64,000 nucleotides of DNA, from positions 16,006 to 80,005 of the forward strand of contig SAQE01000025.1 in NCBI GenBank assembly GCA_004020545.1, in the 5' to 3' direction. The number at the start of each line of letters is the position of its first letter. Positions within the stretch are counted from its first letter, which is position 1. This DNA comes from Mesorhizobium sp. Its GTDB lineage: Bacteria > Pseudomonadota > Alphaproteobacteria > Rhizobiales > Rhizobiaceae. The notes beneath the pieces were generated by a model. That model did not search any database. It was not told where the DNA came from and was given only the letters and a program-made list of their open reading frames with translations. Shown here in pieces: positions 13,432 through 23,806 of the stretch. Both the position numbers and the translations under genes were made by a program.

Positions 13432-14619
13432 ATGTTGACCATCCGCAAACGCGACGCAAGCCGCACGCCTGCCGGTGAAGGCAATCACCAGCCGCGCATC
13501 GCCGTCGGCGAAGAAGGCGGCGTGCTCGGCTGCGCCTTTTCCGGTGTCTGGACGACGCGGACGGTGGCATCGGTCGACGCCGAGATGCGCAGGATCGAGA
13601 AGCGCAGCGGCGCAAAGCAGCTGATGCTCGATCTTTCCCGTATCGAAAAGATGGATACGGCGGGCGCCTGGCTGATCGATCGGCTGGCCAGCGCCTTCGA
13701 GAAGAAGGGCGTCGAGGTCCACGTGCAGGGGCAGAGCGAGATCGCCTCGATCCTGCTTGGCGCCGTCGGCGACGCGGTGCGGCGCGAACCCGAATCGGGA
13801 CCGGCCGGACCGCCCAACATCATCATGCGCGCATTGGAACTGGTCGGCCGCCGCGTCTACGAGATGCGCGACGATTTTCTTGCCTCGATGAACATCCTCG
13901 GCGCCACCATTCGCGGCGCGCAGATGAAGCTTGGGCGTGGCCATGCCGTCAATCCGGCCGCGATCTTCAATCAGATCGACCGCATGGGCGTCGGCGCCAT
14001 CCCTGTGGTGGTGCTGATGTCGGCCATCGTCGGGGCGATCGTCGCGCAGCAGGGCGCCTATCAGCTCAGCTATTTCGGCGCCGATATCTTCGTCGTCGAT
14101 CTTGTCGGCGTGCTGATCCTGCGCGAGCTCGGCGTGCTGATGACCGCGATCATGCTCGCCGGCCGCTCGGGAAGCGCGATCACCGCAGAGATAGGCTCGA
14201 TGAAGATGCGCGAGGAGGTCGACGCGCTGAAGGTGATCGGGCTCAACCCGATCGGCGTTCTGGTGTTTCCGCGGCTCGTCGCCCTGGTGATCGCGCTGCC
14301 ATGCCTAACGATCATCGCCAATTTCGCGGCGCTTGGCGGCGGCATCGTCGCCGCCTACCTCTATTCCGACATTCCGCCGGCCGCGTTCATTGACCGGCTG
14401 CGTGTCGCCATCGACCTCAGCACCATCTTCTCCGGCCTGATCAAGGCGCCGTTCATGGCCATGATCATCGGCACCATTGCTTCGGTGGAAGGCATGAAGG
14501 TCGGCGGCAGCGCCGAATCGCTCGGCCGCCATGTGACCGCCTCGGTGGTGAAGTCGATCTTCGTCGTCATCATCCTCGACGGGCTTTTCGCCATGTTCTA
14601 CGCAGCGATCGAGTTCTGA
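13432..14619 (+). CDS. mlaE: MlaE-family ABC transporter permease with N-terminal STAS-like domain
   Basis: The 395-residue protein fuses an MlaB/STAS-like domain (about residues 15-115, with LMLDLSRIEKMDTAGAWLID) to an MlaE permease domain (about 140-395). The permease has five to six membrane helices and the conserved segments RSGSAITAEIGSMK and EVDALKVIGLNP. In E. coli the STAS subunit (MlaB) and permease (MlaE) are separate proteins. It is the first gene of a four-gene operon that would move phospholipids between the outer and inner membranes. The next gene follows after 1 bp. The ATG at 13432 sits 76 bp from the divergent dgcA start. Confidence 0.93.
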   Translation: MLTIRKRDASRTPAGEGNHQPRIAVGEEGGVLGCAFSGVWTTRTVASVDAEMRRIEKRSGAKQLMLDLSRIEKMDTAGAWLIDRLASAFEKKGVEVHVQGQSEIASILLGAVGDAVRREPESGPAGPPNIIMRALELVGRRVYEMRDDFLASMNILGATIRGAQMKLGRGHAVNPAAIFNQIDRMGVGAIPVVVLMSAIVGAIVAQQGAYQLSYFGADIFVVDLVGVLILRELGVLMTAIMLAGRSGSAITAEIGSMKMREEVDALKVIGLNPIGVLVFPRLVALVIALPCLTIIANFAALGGGIVAAYLYSDIPPAAFIDRLRVAIDLSTIFSGLIKAPFMAMIIGTIASVEGMKVGGSAESLGRHVTASVVKSIFVVIILDGLFAMFYAAIEF

Positions 14620-14620
14620 G

Positions 14621-15439
14621 ATGGCAGTCGCGAGCGGCAACGGCGTCAAGACCACGCAGAACGCGGATGAAAGCGAGATAGTGCTTTCGGTCAAGGACGT
14701 CACGGTTGCCATCGAAGACAAGCTGATCCTCGACAAGCTTTCGCTCGACATCAAGCGCGGCGAGATCCTGGGCTTCGTCGGCGCCTCGGGCGCCGGCAAG
14801 TCCGTCCTGTTGCGCACCATCCTCGGGCTGATGCCCAAGCAATCGGGCACGATCAGGCTGTTCGGCGTCGACGTCGACAAGGCAAGCGACGCCGAGCGCT
14901 TGCGCATCGACATGCGGCTTGGCGTTCTTTTCCAGCACGGGGCGCTGTTTTCGGCGTTGACGGTGCTCGAAAACGTGCAGGTGCCGATGCGCGAATATCT
15001 CGACCTGCCGAAGAAGCTGATGGACGAGCTCGCCATGCTCAAGGTCGAGCTGGTCGGGCTGCCGCCGGATGCGGCGCAGAAATTCCCCTCCGAGCTGTCG
15101 GGCGGCATGATCAAGCGCGCGGCTCTGGCGCGCGCGCTGGCGCTCGACCCGGACATCGTCTTTCTCGACGAGCCGACTTCGGGCCTCGATCCGATCAGTG
15201 CCGCCGAATTCGACGAATTGGTCGTCAAGCTGCGCGATACGATGGACCTGACGGTCTACATGGTCACGCACGACCTCGACACGCTGTTCACCGCCTGCGA
15301 CCACGTGGCGGTGCTCGGCAAGAAGAGGGTGCTGGTCGAAGGCACGATCGACGACATGCTGAAGAGCGAGGAGCCGTGGGTCAAATCCTATTTCCGCGGA
15401 AAACGCGCCCGGCAACTTGATCTTGCGGCGCGCGCATAG
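14621..15439 (+). CDS. mlaF: MlaF-family ABC transporter ATP-binding protein
   Basis: The 272-residue ATPase has Walker A GASGAGKS, the Q-loop region GVLFQHGALFSALTV, signature LSGGMIKRAALARAL, Walker B IVFLDEPTSGLD and the switch His in YMVTHDL. The QHGALF and GGMxKR forms are diagnostic of MlaF/Ttg2A ATPases. It powers the MCE lipid transporter encoded with it. The start codon lies 1 bp after the mlaE stop, so the two are translationally coupled. Confidence 0.95.
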   Translation: MAVASGNGVKTTQNADESEIVLSVKDVTVAIEDKLILDKLSLDIKRGEILGFVGASGAGKSVLLRTILGLMPKQSGTIRLFGVDVDKASDAERLRIDMRLGVLFQHGALFSALTVLENVQVPMREYLDLPKKLMDELAMLKVELVGLPPDAAQKFPSELSGGMIKRAALARALALDPDIVFLDEPTSGLDPISAAEFDELVVKLRDTMDLTVYMVTHDLDTLFTACDHVAVLGKKRVLVEGTIDDMLKSEEPWVKSYFRGKRARQLDLAARA

Positions 15440-15453
15440 CCATAAGTGGGGCA

Positions 15454-16827
15454 ATGGAAACCAGAGCCAACTACGTCATTGTCGGCATCTTCACACTGGC
15501 CGCGATCCTCGCGGCGTTCGCCTTCGTCTACTGGACGGCCGCGATCGGCGAACGTGGCGAGACGACGCTCCTGCGCGTGCGCATTCCCGGCTCGGCTTCG
15601 GGCCTCGGCCGCGGCAGCTTCGTGCTCTTCAACGGCGTCAAGGTGGGCGACGTCAAGCGTGTCTATATCGACGTCGACAATCCGACCGTCGCCATCGCCG
15701 ACACCGAGATCGACCGCATGACGCCGATCACCAAGTCGACGCAGGCCGATATCGGGCTCGCGGGCCTCACCGGTCAGGCCAATATCGAGCTCAGGGGCGC
15801 GGATCCCAAGGAAGCCAAGCTGCTCGACGAGGCGGAGAAGGAGGGCAGGGTCCCCGAGATCGTCGCCAATCCTTCGGCCGTGACCAACCTGTTGCAAACG
15901 GCGCAGAACATCTTCACTCGTGCCGACAAGGTGCTTTCAGATCTTGAGGGCTTCACCAAGGACGTTCGCGGCCCGCTGACGCAGACCGTCAAGAACGTCG
16001 AGACCTTCTCCGACGCGCTGGCCAGGAATTCGGACGGCATCGACAAGTTCCTGTCTGCCGTGAGCTCGCTCTCGGATCAATTGCAGAACGTGTCAGGCAG
16101 GCTCGACAGCACGTTGAAGGCCGCGGAAGGACTGCTCAACTCCGTCGACAAGGACAGGATCAAGAGCATCGTCGCCAACGTCGACACGGTCACGGCGAAC
16201 CTGAAGGAAACCAGCGGGCAGCTTGATGGCGTGTTGAAGAATGTCGATACGGCGGTGGGGTCGGTCAACGACTTCGCCAAGCAGACGCAAGGCACGCTCG
16301 CCAAAGTCGACAACGTGCTCGATGGGATCGATCCCGCGGATGTCCGCACGGCGCTCGCCAACATCCAGAAGGCCAGCGACAGCGCCAACAAGGCCGCAGC
16401 CGATGTCGCCAAGGTCACCGACAAGATCGCCAACCGCTCCGACGATATCAATGATACCATCAAGAACGCACGCCAGCTTTCGCAGCGCCTCAACGACGCC
16501 TCGGTGCGCGTCGACGGCATCCTAGCCAAGGTCGACAAGCTTCTCGGATCCGGTGAGGCCAACGGCGTGATGGCCGATGCGAGAGCGACGCTGAAATCCT
16601 TCAAGCAGGTCGCCGACACGCTGAACGCGCGCCTTGGCACCATCACCGACAATCTGGCGCGCTTCTCCGGCCAGGGGCTGCAGAATGTCGAGGCGCTGGT
16701 GCAGGACAGCCGGCGCTCGATCAACCGCATCGAGGAAGCGGTAACCGACCTTAGCCGCAACCCGCAGCGCATCCTGACGGGCGGCGAGGGCGAGGTCCGG
16801 CAGTTTGACGGCAGGGCACGGCGTTGA
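15454..16827 (+). CDS. mlaD: MlaD-family MCE protein
   Basis: The 457-residue protein has one N-terminal membrane anchor (about residues 6-28, VIVGIFTLAAILAAFAFVYW). A single MCE domain follows (about 38-115), with ASGLGRGSFVLFNGVKVGDV. After that comes about 300 residues of predicted amphipathic helix rich in NVxxxxANLKETSGQLDG-type repeats. E. coli MlaD is only about 180 residues. The long helical tail resembles that of alphaproteobacterial MCE proteins and could form a periplasm-spanning bundle, as in LetB/PqiB-type or Mce-needle systems. It would bind lipid substrates in the periplasm. Confidence 0.93.
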   Translation: METRANYVIVGIFTLAAILAAFAFVYWTAAIGERGETTLLRVRIPGSASGLGRGSFVLFNGVKVGDVKRVYIDVDNPTVAIADTEIDRMTPITKSTQADIGLAGLTGQANIELRGADPKEAKLLDEAEKEGRVPEIVANPSAVTNLLQTAQNIFTRADKVLSDLEGFTKDVRGPLTQTVKNVETFSDALARNSDGIDKFLSAVSSLSDQLQNVSGRLDSTLKAAEGLLNSVDKDRIKSIVANVDTVTANLKETSGQLDGVLKNVDTAVGSVNDFAKQTQGTLAKVDNVLDGIDPADVRTALANIQKASDSANKAAADVAKVTDKIANRSDDINDTIKNARQLSQRLNDASVRVDGILAKVDKLLGSGEANGVMADARATLKSFKQVADTLNARLGTITDNLARFSGQGLQNVEALVQDSRRSINRIEEAVTDLSRNPQRILTGGEGEVRQFDGRARR

Positions 16828-16906
16828 CTTCGGCTGCTGCGAACGCCAAGAACAGAGATTGCAGCTGTAAGTTGATCGTCAGATCCGGGGACAATGGGGA
16901 TCGTGC

Positions 16907-17506
16907 GTGAAGTCGGGTAGAGGGTTGAGGTCGGTTGCCGCCGCGGCGCTCGTGCTTGGGCTCGCCGGCTGCGCGGCGCTGGGAGCCAAGCCGCCGCCGC
17001 TCGACACGTTCGAGCTTTCTGCTCCGTCAGTCGACATGCGCGGCCATAGCCGCCGTCAGATCCTGATCGCCCAGCCCTCTGCGCTGAAGGCGCTCGACAG
17101 CCAGAACATCGTCATCAGGCCGTCCGACCAGTCGATTCAGTTCCTCAAGGGCGCGCAATGGGCGGATCGCCTGCCGCTGATCGTGCAGGCAAGGCTCGCC
17201 GAGACCTTCCAGCGCTCCGGCAGCTTTGCCGGCGTCGGCAAGCCGGGCGAGGGGCTGGCGATCGACTATCAGATCATAGTCGAGGTCCGGTCCTTCGAAG
17301 TTCGCGTCAATGGCGGCGAACATGCCGAAGTCGACCTGTTCGTGCGCGTCCTCAACGACCGCAACGGCGAGGTGCGCGCCTCCAAGAGCTTCACCGCGAG
17401 CGCGCCGGTCTCCGGCAGCGGCAACGCCGCCTATGTCGGCGCGCTGGACAACGCCTTCGGCCAGGCGGCGAAAGACATCGTCCGCTGGACGGATTCTGTG
17501 ATCTGA
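16907..17506 (+). CDS. ABC-type transport auxiliary lipoprotein (PqiC/ABC_trans_aux family)
   Basis: This 199-residue lipoprotein has a signal peptide ending in the lipobox LAGC at residue 22. The domain (about 35-195) with TFELSAP, IVIRPSDQSIQFLKGAQWADRLP and VGALDNAFGQAAKDIVRW matches the ABC-type auxiliary lipoprotein family (DUF330/PqiC). Such proteins sit in the outer membrane and receive lipids from MCE partners. A GTG start is used. It closes the mla operon, 79 bp after mlaD and just before a strong terminator. Confidence 0.9.
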   Translation: MKSGRGLRSVAAAALVLGLAGCAALGAKPPPLDTFELSAPSVDMRGHSRRQILIAQPSALKALDSQNIVIRPSDQSIQFLKGAQWADRLPLIVQARLAETFQRSGSFAGVGKPGEGLAIDYQIIVEVRSFEVRVNGGEHAEVDLFVRVLNDRNGEVRASKSFTASAPVSGSGNAAYVGALDNAFGQAAKDIVRWTDSVI

Positions 17507-17599: not shown

Positions 17600-20500
17600 T
17601 CAGTGCAGGCGGCCGCTGGCGTGGGCAAGCATGGTGTAGACCTTGCCGGTGTCCGACGTGAGGTACGTCTGCGCCATGATGTTGTCGCGGTCGTTGCGCG
17701 AGACATCCTTGAGCAGCTTCTCGAAATCGTCGCAGTAGCGGTCGACGGCGGCGCGGAATTCGGCCTCGGCCTGGTACTTGCGGCGGATCTCGTCGAAGGT
17801 CTGCTGGCCCTTCAGCGTGTAAAGCCGGCGCGTGAACACGTCGCGTTCGCCGCGGCGATAGCGGTTCCACAGTTCGATCGAGGCGTCATGGTCGATGGCG
17901 CGCGCGATATCGACGGACAGCGAATTGAGCGACTCCATGACATGCAGCGGCGAACGCTGGGCAGGCGCCGCACGCGGCGCTTCCGCCGGCGCCGCCGGCT
18001 TCAGGTCTTCCTCGCGCGAAGCGTTGGTCAAGAGATCGCGCACCCAGCCGCCCTGCTGTGTGCGGCCATTCTGGTCGCGCCGCGGCGTCTCCGCGGGACG
18101 CTCGAGATCGAGCGTACCGCGCAGCGTCGTCTCGGCGAGCGGTGCCTGCGGCGCGCGACGCTCCGGTTGCGGCTGAGGCTGCGGCGCCGGCGGACGGCGC
18201 AGCGGCTGTTCGGCGGGACGGGCGGGCGCCTGCGGTGCAGGGCGCAGGCTGCGGGGCTCACCGGTCTCGCTGCTGCCGCTGCGGCCGGATTTCGCAACGA
18301 TGTCAGACAGTTCCTTGAGCGCGTTGATCTGCTCGGAGACGGCGCGCCGAATGGCCGAGGTCGATTCTTTGGCCTCCTCCGGCATCTCGATCACGCCCTT
18401 CTTGAGCTCGGCGCGGGTGAGATCCAGCTCGCTCTTGATCGAGCCCGCGGTGCGCCGCATCTCCTCGGTGGCATCGGCAAAGCGCCGCGTCGCCGAATCG
18501 ACGACCTCGGCGATGGCCGTGCGGATCTTCTCCGCCGATTCCATCGTCCGGCCCTCGGCATTCTGCATCGTCTTGCCCACAAGGCTTTCGAACGAGCGCA
18601 TCACTTTCTCGAGGTCTTCCGACTTCTTGACCAGGCCGACGGCGAGGTCTTCCAGCGAGGACTGCCGCTCCAGCGTGTGCTCGAGATTGCTCTGCGCGGA
18701 GCTCAGCAGAGCCGAGGCGCTCGACAGTAGGCGGCTGTGCTCGTCGAACTTGGTCGCGATCGAGGCAACCTCGCGCAACGTCGCCGACGACAGATCGGTG
18801 AGCCGCGTCGTGTTGGAATCGACGAGGCGCGCCGAGCTGGCAAAGGTCTGGGCCGCCTTTTCCGTGGTCGTGGCGAAGCTCTGCGTGCTGCCGGCGAGGC
18901 GTTCCTCGACCTGACCAAGGTTGACCGCCGCCTGATCGATCAACTGGCCGAGCTGCGCGCTGGAGGTGGACATGCGGCCGATGAGGTCGGCAACGCTGTC
19001 GGCCAGCGTCGAGCGCGCGCCCTCGACGGCCGAAAGCGTCTCGGCCGTGCGGTTGGCGAGGGCGTTGACGAGGGCCGCGTTTTCGCTGCGCAGCTTCTCG
19101 GTCGCCCGCTCGGTGACCTCTTCCATGCTCTTTTGCAGTTCGGAGCCGCCCTGGGCGAAGCGCTCGACCAGAGGACGCGCCGTCTCGTCGAGGATCTTCG
19201 ACATCTCGGCCGAACGTGCCGCAAGCATGGTGTTGAGCTCGCGGGTATTGGCGCCAATGGTCTTTGCCGCCTCGTTGGTGCTCTGGCCGATATGCTGGCC
19301 GACCGCGGTGAAGGTTTCGGCGATAACGTTGGCGCGCGAGATAAGCTGCGCCTCGGCGCTCGATACCTGCTCGCTGAGCTTCTGGCCCATCGTGTCGGCG
19401 GAGGAGGCGAGGCGGCTCTCGACGCTCGCCACCTGCTCCTCGACACGGGTAGCGGCCGCGGCCGCGCTCGATGCCAGGCGCTCGTCGGCGCCGGCAAGCG
19501 CCTGCTCGATCTCGCGGGCGTGGACGGCGAGCTCCTGGCCGGTCTGGCGAGCACGATCGGCGACGCGCTGCTCGGTGGCCGCGAATGCGCCGACAATGGC
19601 GTCGGTATGTTCGCCGATTGTCGAACTGCTGCTGGCGATGCGCGACACCAGGCGGCTATCGGCATCGTCGAAGATGCGGGCAATTTCAGACGCCCGCGAC
19701 GACAGCGCTTCCGAGCCTTCCGCGATGCGTGAGATCAGATGCTGGTCGGCGGCGTCGAAGATGCGGCCGAGATCGGAGGCGCGTGCGGCCAGCGCCTCGG
19801 CCGATTCGGTGATGCGCATGCTCAGCCGCTCGTCGGCACCCTCGAAGTTGCGCAGGATGTCGCCGGCGCGCGCCGCCAGCGACTGCGCCGTTTCGACCGC
19901 GCGAGCGACCAGCTTCTGGTCGGCGGCGTCGAAAGTGCCGGCGATCTCGCCGGCGCGGGCGGCCAGCTTGTCGGCAGTTTCCTCGGCGCGGGCCATGAGC
20001 GAATTGGACGCATCGTCGGCGCGAGCCATCAGCATGCTGGACGTGTCCTGCGCACGCTCGTGCAGGCGGCGGTCGGCCGCCTCGAAGGCGTTGGCGATGT
20101 CCTCGGCCCTGGCAAGCAGCGCGGCCGACGTCTGCTCGGCGCGTTCGGCGATCTTGCGGTCGGCATCGCTGAAGGCGGCCCCGGCCTGCTCGTGCAGCGT
20201 GCTGGTGATTTCCATGACCTTGTCGCGCAACGCGCCGGCAACGAAGACGGCGGTCTTCTCCAGCACGCCGCGGACATTGTCGACGCCGGTCGACAATGCA
20301 CGCTCCATGGTGCCGGCACGCTCTTCAATGATACCGGTCTGCCGGCTGAACGCGTGCTCGATCTTCTCGACATCGGCGGCGATCGCCGCCGAAATGTCGC
20401 TGCTCTTGGCAGCGATCTGGTCGATGTGGCCGGACACCGAACGATCGACGTCCTTGCGTGCCTCGGCAAGCTTGGCGAGATCGTCCTCCAAGGCGCGAGC

Positions 20501-23500
20501 CAGCGTATCGCGCCCCTCGGACAGCTTGCCGACATGGCCGGCAATGATGCCGTCGAGTTCCGAGCGGCTTTCCGCCAGCTTCTGCAGGTCGGCTTCGAGC
20601 GCACGCTTGAGGATATCGCGGCCCTCGGCGAGCTTCTCCACCTGGCCGGAGACCAGGCCATCGATACCGGCGCGGCTCTCGGCGAGCTTGGCGAGATCGG
20701 CCTCGAGAGCACGCGTGAGCACATCGCGACCCTCCGCAAGCTTCTCGACCTGGGCTGCGACGAGGCCGTCGATCGAGGCGCGGCTTTCGGCGAGCTTGGC
20801 GAGATCCGCCTCCAGGGCGCGCTTGAGGATGTCGCGGCCTTCCGCCAGCTTCTCGACCTGGCCGGCGACCAGGCCGTCGATGCTGGAGCGGCTCTCGGCA
20901 AGCTTGGCGAGATCGTCCTCCAAGGCCTTGGACAGCGCCGAGCGGTCCTGCGAGAGCCTGTCGGCGTGGGTCTGCATGAGGTCGCTGGCATTGGCCATGT
21001 CGGCGTCGAGGGCGCGTGAAAGCTCGGCGCGGTGGTCGGTGATCTTTTGGGAATGATCGACGATAGCGCCCTGAATGGTGTTGAGGTCTGCTTCCAGCGC
21101 GCGCTTGAGGATGTCGCGGCCTTCCGCCAGCTTCTCGACCTGGCCGGAGACCAGTCCGTCGATGCTGGAGCGGCTCTCGGCCAACTTGGCTAGATCGTCC
21201 TCGAGAGACTTCGACAGCACCGCGCGGTCCTCGACAAGCCGGTTCTGGTGGTCGGACATTGCGCCGCCAACCGTCTGCAGGTCGGCCTCCAGGGCCTTCG
21301 ACAGTTGCGCGCGTTCCTCCTGCACCCTCTCGGAATGTCCCGCGATGGCACCCCTGATGGTATTGATGTCCGCTTCGAGGGCGCGCTTGAGGATATCACG
21401 CCCTTCGGCGAGCTTCTCGACCTGGCCGGCGACAAGGCCGTCGATGCTGGCGCGGCTCTCGGCCAACTTGGCGAGGTCGGATTCCAGCGTCTGCGACAAC
21501 AGGCTGCGGTCCTCGACGAGCTTGCCGGCATGGCTGTCGATCAGGCCGCGGATGCCGCTCAGGTCGCCTTCCAGCGCGCGGCTGAGTTCGCCCCTGTCTT
21601 CCGCGAGCTTGGCCGAATGGGTCTCGATCAGGTTCCTTATGCCGGCGATGTCGGTCTCGAGCGCCTTGGCGAGCACGGCGCGACCTTCGGCGATCTTCTC
21701 GACCTGGCCGGCGACCAGGCCATCGATCGAAGCCCGGCTGTCCGACAGTTTGCCGAGATCGGCTTCCAGCGCGCGCGCCAGGATGTTGCGGCCCTCGGCC
21801 AGTTTGCCGACATGGCCAGCGACCATTTCGTCAATCATTGAACGGGCTTGCACGAGTCTGCCGGAGTCTTCGTTCAAGGCCTGAGACAGGCGGTTGCGAC
21901 CCTCTTCGAGCTGTTCGAGGTGGCTGCCCAGCGAAGCGTCGATGGCTGCGTGCGCCTCGTTGACTTTGCGCAGGTCGTCTTCCAGAGCGCGCGAGATCAG
22001 GCTGCGGCCTTCGGCCAATTTCTGGACCTGATTGGCCACGGCGTCATCGATGCCGGCGCGACTCTCGGCGAATTTCGCGAGATCCTCCTGCATGGTGGCC
22101 GCCATACGGTGGCTGCTTTCGGCCAGCTTCCGGCTGTGATCTTCGATGGCTTCGTCGATGCCGGCGCGAGCATCGGCGAGCCGCTGGATGTCGGCGTCGA
22201 ACGATCGCGACACGACGTGGCGGGCGGCTTCCATGCGCCCGGCGAAATCGGTGGCGCGCGCTTCGAGCATGGAGGAGGTCGACGACACGATGTCGGCCAT
22301 ATCGGCGCCGATCTGGGTCTTGCCCTGATCGATCATCGCCGACAGCGTGTCCTTGCTCTCGGCGAAGGTGTTGGCGATCTCGCGCGCGCGTTCGACCAGA
22401 GTCTCGTTGATCTGGCGGGCGCGTGCCTCGAGCGCGGCGTTGAGCTTCTGGGTGCCGGTGTCGAGCGCCTCGGCGCGGGTCTGGAACTCGCTGATCAGCG
22501 CCTGGCCGCGTTCGGCCAGCGTCCGCTCGATGCCGTTGAGGCTCGCTTCGAACTCGGAGCTCAGTGTGCGTGCAGCGCCGCCGAGCAGCGAGACCATGCC
22601 GGTGGTGCGGTCATCCAGCAGGTCGGTCAGCGAGCGGGTGAGGCCGTCGGTCGTGTCGGTCAGCTTGGCGATGCGGGTGTCGAGCAGGCTGGCGAAGGCC
22701 TCGCCCGAGGTCGACAGGCGGTCGGTGATCGTATCGAGCCGGGTTTCCACCGAATCGAAGATCGACATCGAGCTTTCGTTGATGCGATCGATCAGCGTGT
22801 CGCCGGAATTGTTGATCGTCATCGACAGCTTGGTCGAGGCGTTGAGGATCGAGTCGCGAATGATGTCGCTGGCCGAGCCGATTTCGTCGCGCAGCGTCTC
22901 ATGGGCGCCGGCGATCGAGGCACGCACGCGCTCGGCGTGGGTGACGACTGCCTCGCGCTCGCTGCCGAGGCCGTCGACCAGCGAGCGGATACGAGCCTCG
23001 TTCTCGGAATAGGAGCGCTCGATCTGGCTGACTTCGCTGTGGACGAGCGTTTCGAGCTCGACGGCGCGCGCCAGCGTGCGCTCGATGCCTTCGCCCATTG
23101 CCGCCACCTCGCGGCGCACGGCCTGACCGATCATCATGACGCGGTCCTGGGCAAGGTTCTCCGGCTCGGCGAGGCGGAAGGCCACCTCGGTCATCGATTG
23201 TGCGGCAATGCGCATTTCCTGGGCGCGCCGGATCATGGCCGCGAAGGCCCAGAACAGGATGACCGGGATGATCGCCGCGACCACCAGGCCGATCAGCTCG
23301 GGGCGGGCGAAGAACTGATCGAAGGTGCGGATCTTCCAGATGCTTGGGCCGAACAGCAGGTTGGCAAGGCCGCCGGCGCCGGCGATCCAGGCAAGCGAAA
23401 TGAACGCTATGACCCAGTAGACGGTGCTCGAGGCGCGCCTGTTGAGGCCATACAGAAGCGTCCTGTAATCCTTCTGGCGGTCATCATTTGCCGGTGTGAA

Positions 23501-23806
23501 ACCGGCAGGAGCCGGCGTGAAACCGGCCGGCTGAGAAGCGCGCGATTCGACCGGGCGCAGCTCCGCCGGCTTTGGCTGGGGCGCCGCCTTCGCGGCCTGA
23601 GGCTCATTTGCCGGCTCAGTCCTCTGGCTGCGGCCTTCGCGCGCCAATTCGTCCGCGGCCGCCGAAATCTGGGCTTCGAGATCTTCCATCGACGCCGCCA
23701 TGTCGAGGCCGCCTTCGTCGCCGTTGAGGTCAAGGTCAAGCGCCTTTTCCAGTTCCGCGGCTACGTCGCTCTCGAAGGATTTCGTCGTCGTCGGTTTCTT
23801 AGCCAT
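17600..23806 (-). CDS. Giant membrane-anchored coiled-coil protein, probable growth-pole ring protein (GPR/RgsE family)
   Basis: This 2068-residue protein has an acidic N-terminus (1-60), a Pro/Ala linker, and two membrane helices (about 128-152 and 171-192). Some 1650 residues of nearly uninterrupted helix follow. Then come a proline-rich linker rich in RPAPQAP/PQPQPQ and a compact C-terminal domain of about 110 residues (ending TGKVYTMLAHASGRLH). Two repeat arrays lie at residues 606-1139 (36/29-residue units) and 1234-1458 (29/11-residue units). Size and architecture match Agrobacterium GPR and Sinorhizobium RgsE, which organise unipolar growth. Database labels such as 'kinesin' or 'apolipoprotein' for such proteins reflect only the coiled coil. 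It is divergent from an Hpt gene. The family assignment rests on recalled architecture, not alignment. Confidence 0.82.
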   Translation of the reverse strand: MAKKPTTTKSFESDVAAELEKALDLDLNGDEGGLDMAASMEDLEAQISAAADELAREGRSQRTEPANEPQAAKAAPQPKPAELRPVESRASQPAGFTPAPAGFTPANDDRQKDYRTLLYGLNRRASSTVYWVIAFISLAWIAGAGGLANLLFGPSIWKIRTFDQFFARPELIGLVVAAIIPVILFWAFAAMIRRAQEMRIAAQSMTEVAFRLAEPENLAQDRVMMIGQAVRREVAAMGEGIERTLARAVELETLVHSEVSQIERSYSENEARIRSLVDGLGSEREAVVTHAERVRASIAGAHETLRDEIGSASDIIRDSILNASTKLSMTINNSGDTLIDRINESSMSIFDSVETRLDTITDRLSTSGEAFASLLDTRIAKLTDTTDGLTRSLTDLLDDRTTGMVSLLGGAARTLSSEFEASLNGIERTLAERGQALISEFQTRAEALDTGTQKLNAALEARARQINETLVERAREIANTFAESKDTLSAMIDQGKTQIGADMADIVSSTSSMLEARATDFAGRMEAARHVVSRSFDADIQRLADARAGIDEAIEDHSRKLAESSHRMAATMQEDLAKFAESRAGIDDAVANQVQKLAEGRSLISRALEDDLRKVNEAHAAIDASLGSHLEQLEEGRNRLSQALNEDSGRLVQARSMIDEMVAGHVGKLAEGRNILARALEADLGKLSDSRASIDGLVAGQVEKIAEGRAVLAKALETDIAGIRNLIETHSAKLAEDRGELSRALEGDLSGIRGLIDSHAGKLVEDRSLLSQTLESDLAKLAESRASIDGLVAGQVEKLAEGRDILKRALEADINTIRGAIAGHSERVQEERAQLSKALEADLQTVGGAMSDHQNRLVEDRAVLSKSLEDDLAKLAESRSSIDGLVSGQVEKLAEGRDILKRALEADLNTIQGAIVDHSQKITDHRAELSRALDADMANASDLMQTHADRLSQDRSALSKALEDDLAKLAESRSSIDGLVAGQVEKLAEGRDILKRALEADLAKLAESRASIDGLVAAQVEKLAEGRDVLTRALEADLAKLAESRAGIDGLVSGQVEKLAEGRDILKRALEADLQKLAESRSELDGIIAGHVGKLSEGRDTLARALEDDLAKLAEARKDVDRSVSGHIDQIAAKSSDISAAIAADVEKIEHAFSRQTGIIEERAGTMERALSTGVDNVRGVLEKTAVFVAGALRDKVMEITSTLHEQAGAAFSDADRKIAERAEQTSAALLARAEDIANAFEAADRRLHERAQDTSSMLMARADDASNSLMARAEETADKLAARAGEIAGTFDAADQKLVARAVETAQSLAARAGDILRNFEGADERLSMRITESAEALAARASDLGRIFDAADQHLISRIAEGSEALSSRASEIARIFDDADSRLVSRIASSSSTIGEHTDAIVGAFAATEQRVADRARQTGQELAVHAREIEQALAGADERLASSAAAAATRVEEQVASVESRLASSADTMGQKLSEQVSSAEAQLISRANVIAETFTAVGQHIGQSTNEAAKTIGANTRELNTMLAARSAEMSKILDETARPLVERFAQGGSELQKSMEEVTERATEKLRSENAALVNALANRTAETLSAVEGARSTLADSVADLIGRMSTSSAQLGQLIDQAAVNLGQVEERLAGSTQSFATTTEKAAQTFASSARLVDSNTTRLTDLSSATLREVASIATKFDEHSRLLSSASALLSSAQSNLEHTLERQSSLEDLAVGLVKKSEDLEKVMRSFESLVGKTMQNAEGRTMESAEKIRTAIAEVVDSATRRFADATEEMRRTAGSIKSELDLTRAELKKGVIEMPEEAKESTSAIRRAVSEQINALKELSDIVAKSGRSGSSETGEPRSLRPAPQAPARPAEQPLRRPPAPQPQPQPERRAPQAPLAETTLRGTLDLERPAETPRRDQNGRTQQGGWVRDLLTNASREEDLKPAAPAEAPRAAPAQRSPLHVMESLNSLSVDIARAIDHDASIELWNRYRRGERDVFTRRLYTLKGQQTFDEIRRKYQAEAEFRAAVDRYCDDFEKLLKDVSRNDRDNIMAQTYLTSDTGKVYTMLAHASGRLH
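19433..20107 (-). repeat. Second tandem repeat array inside the gpr-like gene (29- and 11-codon units)
   Basis: Units of the form A-(E/D)-I-x5-(F/L)-x3-(A/T)-(D/E)-x-(K/R)-L begin at 20107, then after two 11-residue inserts at 20020 and 19987. Regular 29-residue steps continue at 19954, 19867, 19780, 19693, 19606 and 19519. They encode residues 1234-1458. Confidence 0.85.
20498..21991 (-). repeat. Tandem repeat array inside the gpr-like gene (36- and 29-codon units)
   Basis: Taking the (R/K/Q)(A/S/T)LE-type motif as anchor, sixteen units start at 21991, 21883, 21775, 21667, 21580, 21493, 21385, 21298, 21211, 21103, 21016, 20929, 20821, 20713, 20605 and 20497. Steps are 36 or 29 codons. The steps 29-29-36 occur three times in a row, giving three 282-bp super-repeats (21667-21386, 21385-21104, 21103-20822). 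Three 108-bp units follow (20821-20498). The 36-residue unit splits into two 18-residue halves, each beginning LAE(S/G)R. Confidence 0.9.

Follow-up and report, generated by a model that had tools for sequence, protein, structure and literature searches.

Repeat units of whole helical turns in a putative rod protein of Mesorhizobium, a probable orthologue of the growth-pole-ring protein GPR/RgsE

The long amphipathic helices of the apolipoproteins A1, A4 and E (PF01442) have a periodicity of 11 and 22 residues. Regions matching PF01442 also occur in the growth-pole-ring proteins of the Rhizobiales, which are GPR of Agrobacterium tumefaciens (Atu1348, 2115 aa) and RgsE of Sinorhizobium meliloti (SMc00190, 2089 aa). 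They form a ring at the growing pole, and cells that lose them become round or misshapen. As described in the accessible parts of two papers (PMC8262873, PMC7327166), these proteins have two N-terminal membrane helices, a rod of apolipoprotein-like regions and coiled coils, and a low-complexity C-terminus, with homologues in all Rhizobiales families. The GPR ring measures 200 nm, judging from the title of a PNAS 2019 paper cited in PMC9938171. The word 'repeat' is absent from the main text of PMC8262873, RgsE is termed 'repeat-containing' in the methods of PMC7327166, and the accessible text of the two gives no unit lengths, super-repeats, copy-number variation or phase quantisation for either protein. 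Scy and FilP of Streptomyces are very long scaffolds of polar growth, with non-canonical repeats near the pitch of a straight helix. According to the accessible text of the papers concerned, the CC51 repeat of Scy/FilP places 51 residues in 14 turns (PMC3718342), and the proteins carry hendecads in the coiled coil and a DivIVA-like N-terminal domain (PMC9858780).

The window (the whole stretch of DNA analysed, 64 kb) contains a gene for a protein of 2068 aa, whose features are itemized in Table 1. The 19-residue hydropathy mean reaches 1.6 or more only at the two hydrophobic segments. The protein matches PF01442 in 8 stretches (E 2.2e-25) with a score of 89.9 bits, missing the curated cut-off of 90 bits by 0.1 bit. 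The hydrophobic periodicity is 3.61 residues in the first array, 3.65 before it and 3.64 after it. In the predicted model of the first array 544 of 586 residues are helical, with three low-confidence breaks (mean pLDDT 68.7, pTM 0.22). The C-terminal cap is 97–100% identical across 12 chosen named Mesorhizobium relatives; its AlphaFold model has a mean pLDDT of 53.7, which is too low to use. A search of PDB sequences with the array returned a single weak match (E 0.00028), a chain with a name suggestive of a designed coiled coil, and is uninformative.

Table 1. Features of the gene and the encoded protein, in window coordinates
Feature	Residues	Window position	Strand	Evidence
Gene, 2068 aa; putative helical rod with membrane anchor, probable orthologue of GPR/RgsE		17600..23806	-	ORF list, PF01442, conserved N block
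Two hydrophobic segments, likely membrane anchor	129-152 and 165-195	23222..23422	-	Hydropathy
First repeat array	570-1139	20390..22099	-	Motif steps, self-comparison, orthologue-trained model, predicted structure
Super-repeat 1 (29-29-36)	714-807	21386..21667	-	Motif steps, self-comparison
Super-repeat 2 (29-29-36)	808-901	21104..21385	-	Motif steps, self-comparison
Super-repeat 3 (29-29-36)	902-995	20822..21103	-	Motif steps, self-comparison
Second repeat array, steps 29,51,29,29,29,29	~1212-1436	19499..20173	-	Anchor F-[DESA]-[DAG]-[AT]-[DE]
Proline-rich low-complexity linker	~1848-1950	17957..18265	-	Read by eye; approximate limits
C-terminal cap	1944-2068	17603..17977	-	Identity among relatives

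The protein is probably the Mesorhizobium orthologue of GPR/RgsE, an assignment made by matching described features. As far as the accessible parts of the published account go, the protein is close in size to GPR and RgsE (2068 aa, against 2115 and 2089) and resembles them in a pair of hydrophobic or membrane helices near the N-terminus, a predicted rod with PF01442-like stretches, a low-complexity region close to the C-terminus and homologues across the order. The conserved N block is present in 59 of 61 genomes searched in the genus, 196 of 198 in the family and 120 of 120 in the order. It lies at two places in seven genus genomes, where each hit covers its own part of the query (gapped hits or hits split between contigs), and in one order genome; the remaining genomes have one place each. 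Compared with the apolipoproteins, the protein is bacterial, carries a putative membrane anchor, falls just below the cut-off and exceeds human apolipoprotein A-IV (396 aa in the accessible text of PMC8262873) several-fold in length. A 51-residue spacing is shared between the CC51 repeat of Scy/FilP and the GPR/RgsE-like genes analysed here, but in the latter the unit length shifts from genus to genus, and none of the 11 Pfam matches that the 2068-aa protein has up to E 1 is a DivIVA domain.

The first array is a regular succession of units of two lengths. The initial annotation had read steps of 36, 36, 36, 29, 29, 36, 29, 29, 36, 29, 29, 36, 36, 36 and 36 residues (sum 498), and these are reproduced exactly at anchor residues 606, 642, 678, 714, 743, 772, 808, 837, 866, 902, 931, 960, 996, 1032, 1068 and 1104, which run from 21991 down to 20497 of the window on the minus strand. 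A model trained on orthologues adds a further 36-residue step on the N side, with its anchor at 570. The full array is therefore four steps of 36, then 29, 29, 36, 29, 29, 36, 29 and 29, then four of 36, followed by a last 36-residue unit. The 29-29-36 pattern had been described as three exact 282-bp blocks; the length is indeed exact, but the sequences differ, with 185, 190 and 207 of 282 nucleotides (66–73%) and 59, 58 and 64 of 94 amino acids (62–68%) identical in the block comparisons. Among units of equal length in the array, those of 36 residues in super-repeats 2 and 3 are the closest (91.7% nucleotide identity), and the longest exact repeat within the gene is 49 nt.

Ungapped self-comparison of the protein over residues 601–1110 has peaks at lags of 94 (identity 0.44) and 36 residues (0.35), against a maximum of 0.19 in 200 shuffles at the lags tried. 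The DNA self-comparison has peaks at 282 and 108 nt and TRF reports periods of 282, 216 and 108, so that both off-diagonals for which a dotplot check had been proposed are present. When the whole window was scanned for repeats (75% identity over 87 nt, lags 33–399 nt), 438 of 438 start positions fell inside this gene. In 87 orthologues the second array has steps of 29, 40, 51, 62 and 102 residues, plus a single 160.

Throughout the genus the first array keeps to the same two lengths. The 1754 steps counted across 103 distinct Mesorhizobium orthologues comprise 972 of 36 residues and 782 of 29, with none of any other length, though these are not independent observations because the orthologues share ancestry. 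Sixteen of the 103 proteins, each interrupted by a contig end, a gap or a stop, contribute to the 1754 steps and stand outside the tree and the copy-number counts; L060 is kept among the remaining 87 despite an out-of-frame cap. Three loci (L053, L119 and L138) were dropped, as the motif of the ORF finder failed on them, and from one contig scan the best 80 of 147 relatives were kept, 78 of them titled Mesorhizobium. Unit number, which the initial annotation had proposed counting in relatives, varies widely: the array has 11 to 31 steps in the 87 long ORFs, and their gene tree requires at least 50 changes of pattern and at least 45 of unit number. Both whole 282-bp super-repeats and single units of 87 or 108 bp are present in some relatives and missing from others. 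In L164 an a-a-B block is 98, 95 and 99% identical in nucleotide sequence to the units three earlier and is missing in L089, and in L160 a block is 91, 100 and 92% identical to the units three earlier and is missing in L087. Single units near-identical to their neighbour are present in L073 (94%) and L086 (90%). The stepwise tandem duplication originally suggested from the one sequence is thus supported by near-identical adjoining blocks in L164, L160 and L073. The array spans 361–997 residues in the genus (s.d. 99), compared with an s.d. of 10 on the N side and 35 on the C side; compensation between array and C-side length was sought and none was found (86 contrasts, r = 0.007).

Elsewhere in the family and order the units have other lengths, of 22, 33, 40, 44, 47, 51, 62, 66 and 84 residues. 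Open frames are 1526–3387 aa long in 80 family genomes and 868–2887 aa in 40 order genomes, some being cut by contig ends. Counting lags from 9 nt upwards, 102 of 103 genus genes and 65 of 80 family genes have repeats in the DNA (at least 75% over 87 nt); counting from 33 nt, so do 24 of 40 order genes. Lags were analysed in 223 genes: 103 from the genus (including that of the window), 80 of 196 family matches and 40 of 120 order matches, the latter two sets hand-chosen among the matches listed and spread over genera and families. The 455 gene-lag pairs of between 10 and 100 residues were compared with a helix of 3.63 residues per turn, the value for an undistorted alpha-helix in the accessible text of PMC9858780; 451 of them come to within 0.25 turn of an integral number of turns. 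Lags up to and including 10 residues (3, 5, 9 and 10) are outside the 455 and, where inspected, fall in proline-rich or low-complexity parts. The four pairs out of phase have lags of 12, 20, 24 and 68 residues. Two lags are out of frame, each beside an assembly gap: 263 nt in L043, which is in phase and among the 451, and 347 nt in L165. In several genes the 0.25-turn limit is also missed by longer lags, at 100, 110, 128 and 132 residues; 110 and 132 are multiples of 11, with a pitch of 3.667.

For a hand-picked set of lags not divisible by 11 (29, 36, 40, 47, 51, 62 and 84 residues) the cosine mean is 0.895 at a fixed pitch of 3.63, a value reached by none of 20000 random sets. The relabelling test confined to the genus is weaker, with the observed value reached by 6 of 5000 random sets. 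The fitted pitch varies with the set, being 3.616 for the genus, 3.636 for family, order and window together and, in sets made up of distinct lags, 3.632, 3.652, 3.654 and 3.676. The initial annotation had proposed that the 29- and 36-residue units keep helical phase; this holds, and extends across genera beyond their difference of seven residues. A heptad pitch was rejected, the concentration for family, order and window being 0.25 at 3.5 and 0.76 at 3.636. A test of lengths of the form 7a+11b was dropped in favour of the pitch test, because every number from 60 upwards fits that form.

We consider it likely that the protein is a scaffold rod of the GPR/RgsE type, tolerant of length and strict in phase. 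The polypeptide would start with a short stretch followed by two membrane helices, run on for ~1500 residues in an almost unbroken alpha-helix and finish with a proline-rich linker and the conserved C-terminal cap. Units of 29 and 36 residues would form 8 and 10 turns, and the super-repeat of 94 residues 26 turns. Since these are whole turns, the rod could change its length without rotating the hydrophobic stripe. Comparison of relatives shows that units come and go through tandem duplication and deletion, gain and loss being distinguishable only where neighbouring units are near-identical. Selection would then purge changes that break frame or phase, as indicated mainly by the differing unit lengths of other genera; within one array the grid could also stem from in-register recombination without selection. 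By analogy with published work on GPR/RgsE, the rod may space the membrane anchor from the cap at the growing pole.

Neutral turnover on its own has almost an even chance of being the whole explanation. On that account the quantisation into 29 and 36 is a mutational by-product because homologous units recombine in register, and the length of the rod has no functional meaning beyond its being a helix. This overlaps with the phase-strict scaffold and differs from it in denying selection for phase inside the array. The frequent changes of unit number in the 87 genes, the uncompensated lengths of array and C side, and the similarity of extra units to others of the same array (77–100%) are all consistent with it; the single pitch shared by the differing unit lengths of the genera that are not multiples of 11 is left unexplained. 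Selection that matched unit number to the size of a species' growth-pole ring or cell pole would fit the large recurrent differences of array length in the genus, the wide ORF ranges in family and order and the small variation at the protein ends, but near relatives readily differ in unit number and the C side does not compensate, making such tuning quite improbable. We regard as slightly more doubtful still an evolvable molecular ruler, in which a rod that grows or shrinks only in whole turns of the helix would fix how wide the growth-pole ring is or how far it reaches; if it were true, species would reshape the geometry of the pole via units of 29 and 36 residues (22, 33, 40, 44, 62 and 66 elsewhere).

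The amphipathic helices might instead lie on or carry lipid as in apolipoproteins, the repeats tuning capacity and not rod length. The PF01442 match points that way, as does a hydrophobic periodicity of 3.61–3.65 and not 3.5. The gene also converges on an MlaE-ATPase-MlaD-lipoprotein operon, which by family we take to be a lipid-transport system, and in 13 of 20 distant genomes the stretch retrieved includes MlaE. A lipid role is proposed in the accessible text of PMC8262873. Similarity of amphipathic helices is, however, weak evidence of lipid binding, and the score is 0.1 bit short of the cut-off. The other flank is conserved too (ferredoxin in 20 of 20 and Hpt in 18 of 20 distant genomes), so the Mla link may merely reflect slow change of gene order; we think a lipid-binding surface unlikely. 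Chance self-similarity of a helix rich in Ala, Glu, Leu and Arg, with no true duplication, is given next to no weight. Its biased composition might produce short lags such as 11 at the protein level, but the repeats are widespread in the DNA of genus, family and order, and in codon-shuffled copies of 121 genes lags are absent from 33 nt upwards. For the Mesorhizobium array this explanation is refuted.

The lengths of the duplications alone read out the pitch of the alpha-helix (the fitted values run from 3.62 to 3.68, according to which lags are included). Quanta of helical turns point to in-phase deletions of units as apt mutants. With conserved ends and a rod of variable length, these proteins form a natural length series, with arrays of 361 to 997 residues inside a single genus and open frames of 868 to 3387 aa among the relatives retrieved, for testing the size of the growth-pole ring against the length of the rod.

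The rod gene (table) encodes a probable orthologue of GPR/RgsE, with two hydrophobic N-terminal segments, helices resembling PF01442, a Pro-rich linker and a C-terminal cap. It contains two repeat arrays. The steps of 29 and 36 residues assigned to the first array in the initial annotation are exact when recounted between anchors, and one additional 36-residue step lies beyond them towards the N side. The 282-bp blocks of the 94-residue super-repeat (29-29-36) are equal in length as claimed, but their sequences are not exact copies, with a DNA identity of 66–73%. Self-repetition of the array is well beyond that of shuffled controls, and the rod gene is the sole place in the window with repeats at 75% identity over 87 nt. 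The second array lies in the protein's C half and has steps of 29, 51, 29, 29, 29 and 29. In 87 orthologues its steps are 29 (534), 102 (68), 51 (67), 40 (34), 62 (19) and 160 (1), so that the differences between short steps are multiples of 11 residues, compared with 7 in the first array. The first array is predicted to be helical by a structure model of modest confidence. The hydrophobic periodicity of the protein, computed directly, is 3.61–3.65 residues, in agreement with the pitch derived from repeat spacings. The cap is 97–100% identical in 12 chosen named relatives, compared with 79–94% for the array in 19 relatives.

Coordinates of the rod gene and its neighbours in the window
Feature	Position	Strand	Remarks
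Rod gene	17600-23806	-	2068 aa; super-repeat finding at residues 606-1103
MlaE, ABC ATPase, MlaD and ABC auxiliary lipoprotein	13462-17506	+	Converging on rod gene

These features of the protein match those described for GPR and RgsE in passages of PMC8262873 and PMC7327166, where depletion of either gives round or misshapen cells. From the reported features we infer that the rod protein is probably GPR. The conserved N-terminal block was located in 59 of the 61 genus genomes, 196 of the 198 from the family and all 120 from the order, the family and order sets each including the genome itself and a few genus members. In 20 distant genomes fetched with flanking sequence, tblastn located ferredoxin and the cap in all 20, Hpt in 18 and, within the fetched stretch, MlaE in 13. 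The Mla neighbours might indicate a lipid link for GPR, or merely slow change in gene order.

The number of units varies widely among Mesorhizobium relatives. The window and 137 genus loci gave 135 proteins (103 distinct; first-Met starts approximate), related by common ancestry and so not independent. The 1754 first-array steps in the distinct proteins comprise 972 of 36 and 782 of 29 residues, with none other. Among 87 long, closed ORFs the array ranges from 11 to 31 steps; it begins with four steps of 36 followed by 29, 29, 36 in 83 of the 87, counted from step patterns, and variation lies mainly downstream of this. On a gene tree based on the DNA preceding the array at least 50 pattern changes and at least 45 changes in unit number are needed, these being minima on a tree with weak support at 23 of 84 inner branches. 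A unit-by-unit comparison covered ten hand-picked pairs of relatives, two of which have L155 in common. In two of the ten the extra part consists of a 29-29-36 block, whose units are 91–100% identical to those three earlier. Between L080 and L081 it is a 29-36-29 stretch with the same total length as the super-repeat (best matches 90–92% identical). The other seven differ by a single unit of 29 or 36 residues; its best match within the array, at 77–94% identity, is in some cases not an adjacent unit. The most similar pair of units reaches at least 95% nucleotide identity in 10 of the 87 genes. The expansion and contraction of units that the initial annotation had raised are thus seen in the ten pairs and the 87-gene tree. 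In seven genus loci the frame ends early and the cap motif is found at another place in the locus, reflecting either sequencing error or genuine disruption; N occurs in four (L043, L088, L165 and L166) and in none of L034, L060 and L095.

Across hand-chosen samples of 80 family and 40 order genomes unit length also varies. Repeats at the DNA level (75% over 87 nt) are found in 65 of the 80 family and 24 of the 40 order genes, and in none of 121 codon-shuffled genes. The spacings between self-similar repeats (lags) nevertheless keep helical phase. Gene-lag pairs from 10 to 100 residues number 455, and 451 of them fall no more than a quarter turn from whole turns at 3.63, where uniform lags would be expected to place half. 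Family, order and window taken together give a best pitch of 3.636 (equalled by none of 5000 random sets), and the genus gives 3.616 (6 of 5000 as high). Counting each of 21 distinct lags once, in a set chosen by hand, gives 3.632 (none of 20000 as high). Because 11-residue units yield multiples of 11 through register alone, lags that are not such multiples were tested apart. A hand-chosen set of these (29, 36, 40, 47, 51, 62 and 84) keeps phase more closely than any of 20000 random sets, with a best pitch of 3.676, or 3.652 when 69, 76 and 80 are added. Four lags below 100 residues are out of phase: one of 68 adjoins an assembly gap (L232), and the other three are short and lie in low-complexity sequence or simple repeats (L268, L277). 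Two lags are out of frame, each adjoining an assembly gap (L043, L165). Misses above 100 residues are mostly multiples of 11 (110, 132); there is also one at 100 and one at 128. Some rods, each from a single genus, are dominated by one unusual spacing: 84 residues in L243, 51 in L195, 62 in L239, 40 in L185, 66 in L215 and 22 in L223. These would be useful as a structural series.

The closest mechanical parallels are the polar-growth scaffolds Scy and FilP. According to passages of PMC3718342 and PMC9858780, both contain hendecads, and Scy has a repeat of 51 residues in 14 turns. The Pfam matches of the rod protein include no DivIVA domain, and the protein is therefore likened to Scy and FilP in its working and not classed with them. 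The titles, abstract openings and passages covered, a partial literature, hold no prior account of the 29/36 hierarchy or the phase rule.

An α-helix rises by 0.15 nm per residue, and 1700 residues are thus calculated to span 255 nm. The title of the 2019 GPR paper, as cited in PMC9938171, speaks of a 200-nm ring, a size close to this. The conclusions of PMC8262873 put the extended length of a 1700-residue helical domain at 600 nm, which is inconsistent with the rise of 0.15 nm per residue.

Differences between relatives are of whole units, with frame and phase nearly always preserved and little variation at the ends. Selection would purge phase-breaking changes, probably because the hydrophobic stripe has to keep to one side of the helix so that it can pack against a partner helix or a membrane. 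The length of the array has a standard deviation of 99 residues, which is not offset on the C side, and so tolerance of length fits better than a strict ruler for a protein of the GPR/RgsE type, which published work, as far as covered, describes as organising the growing pole.
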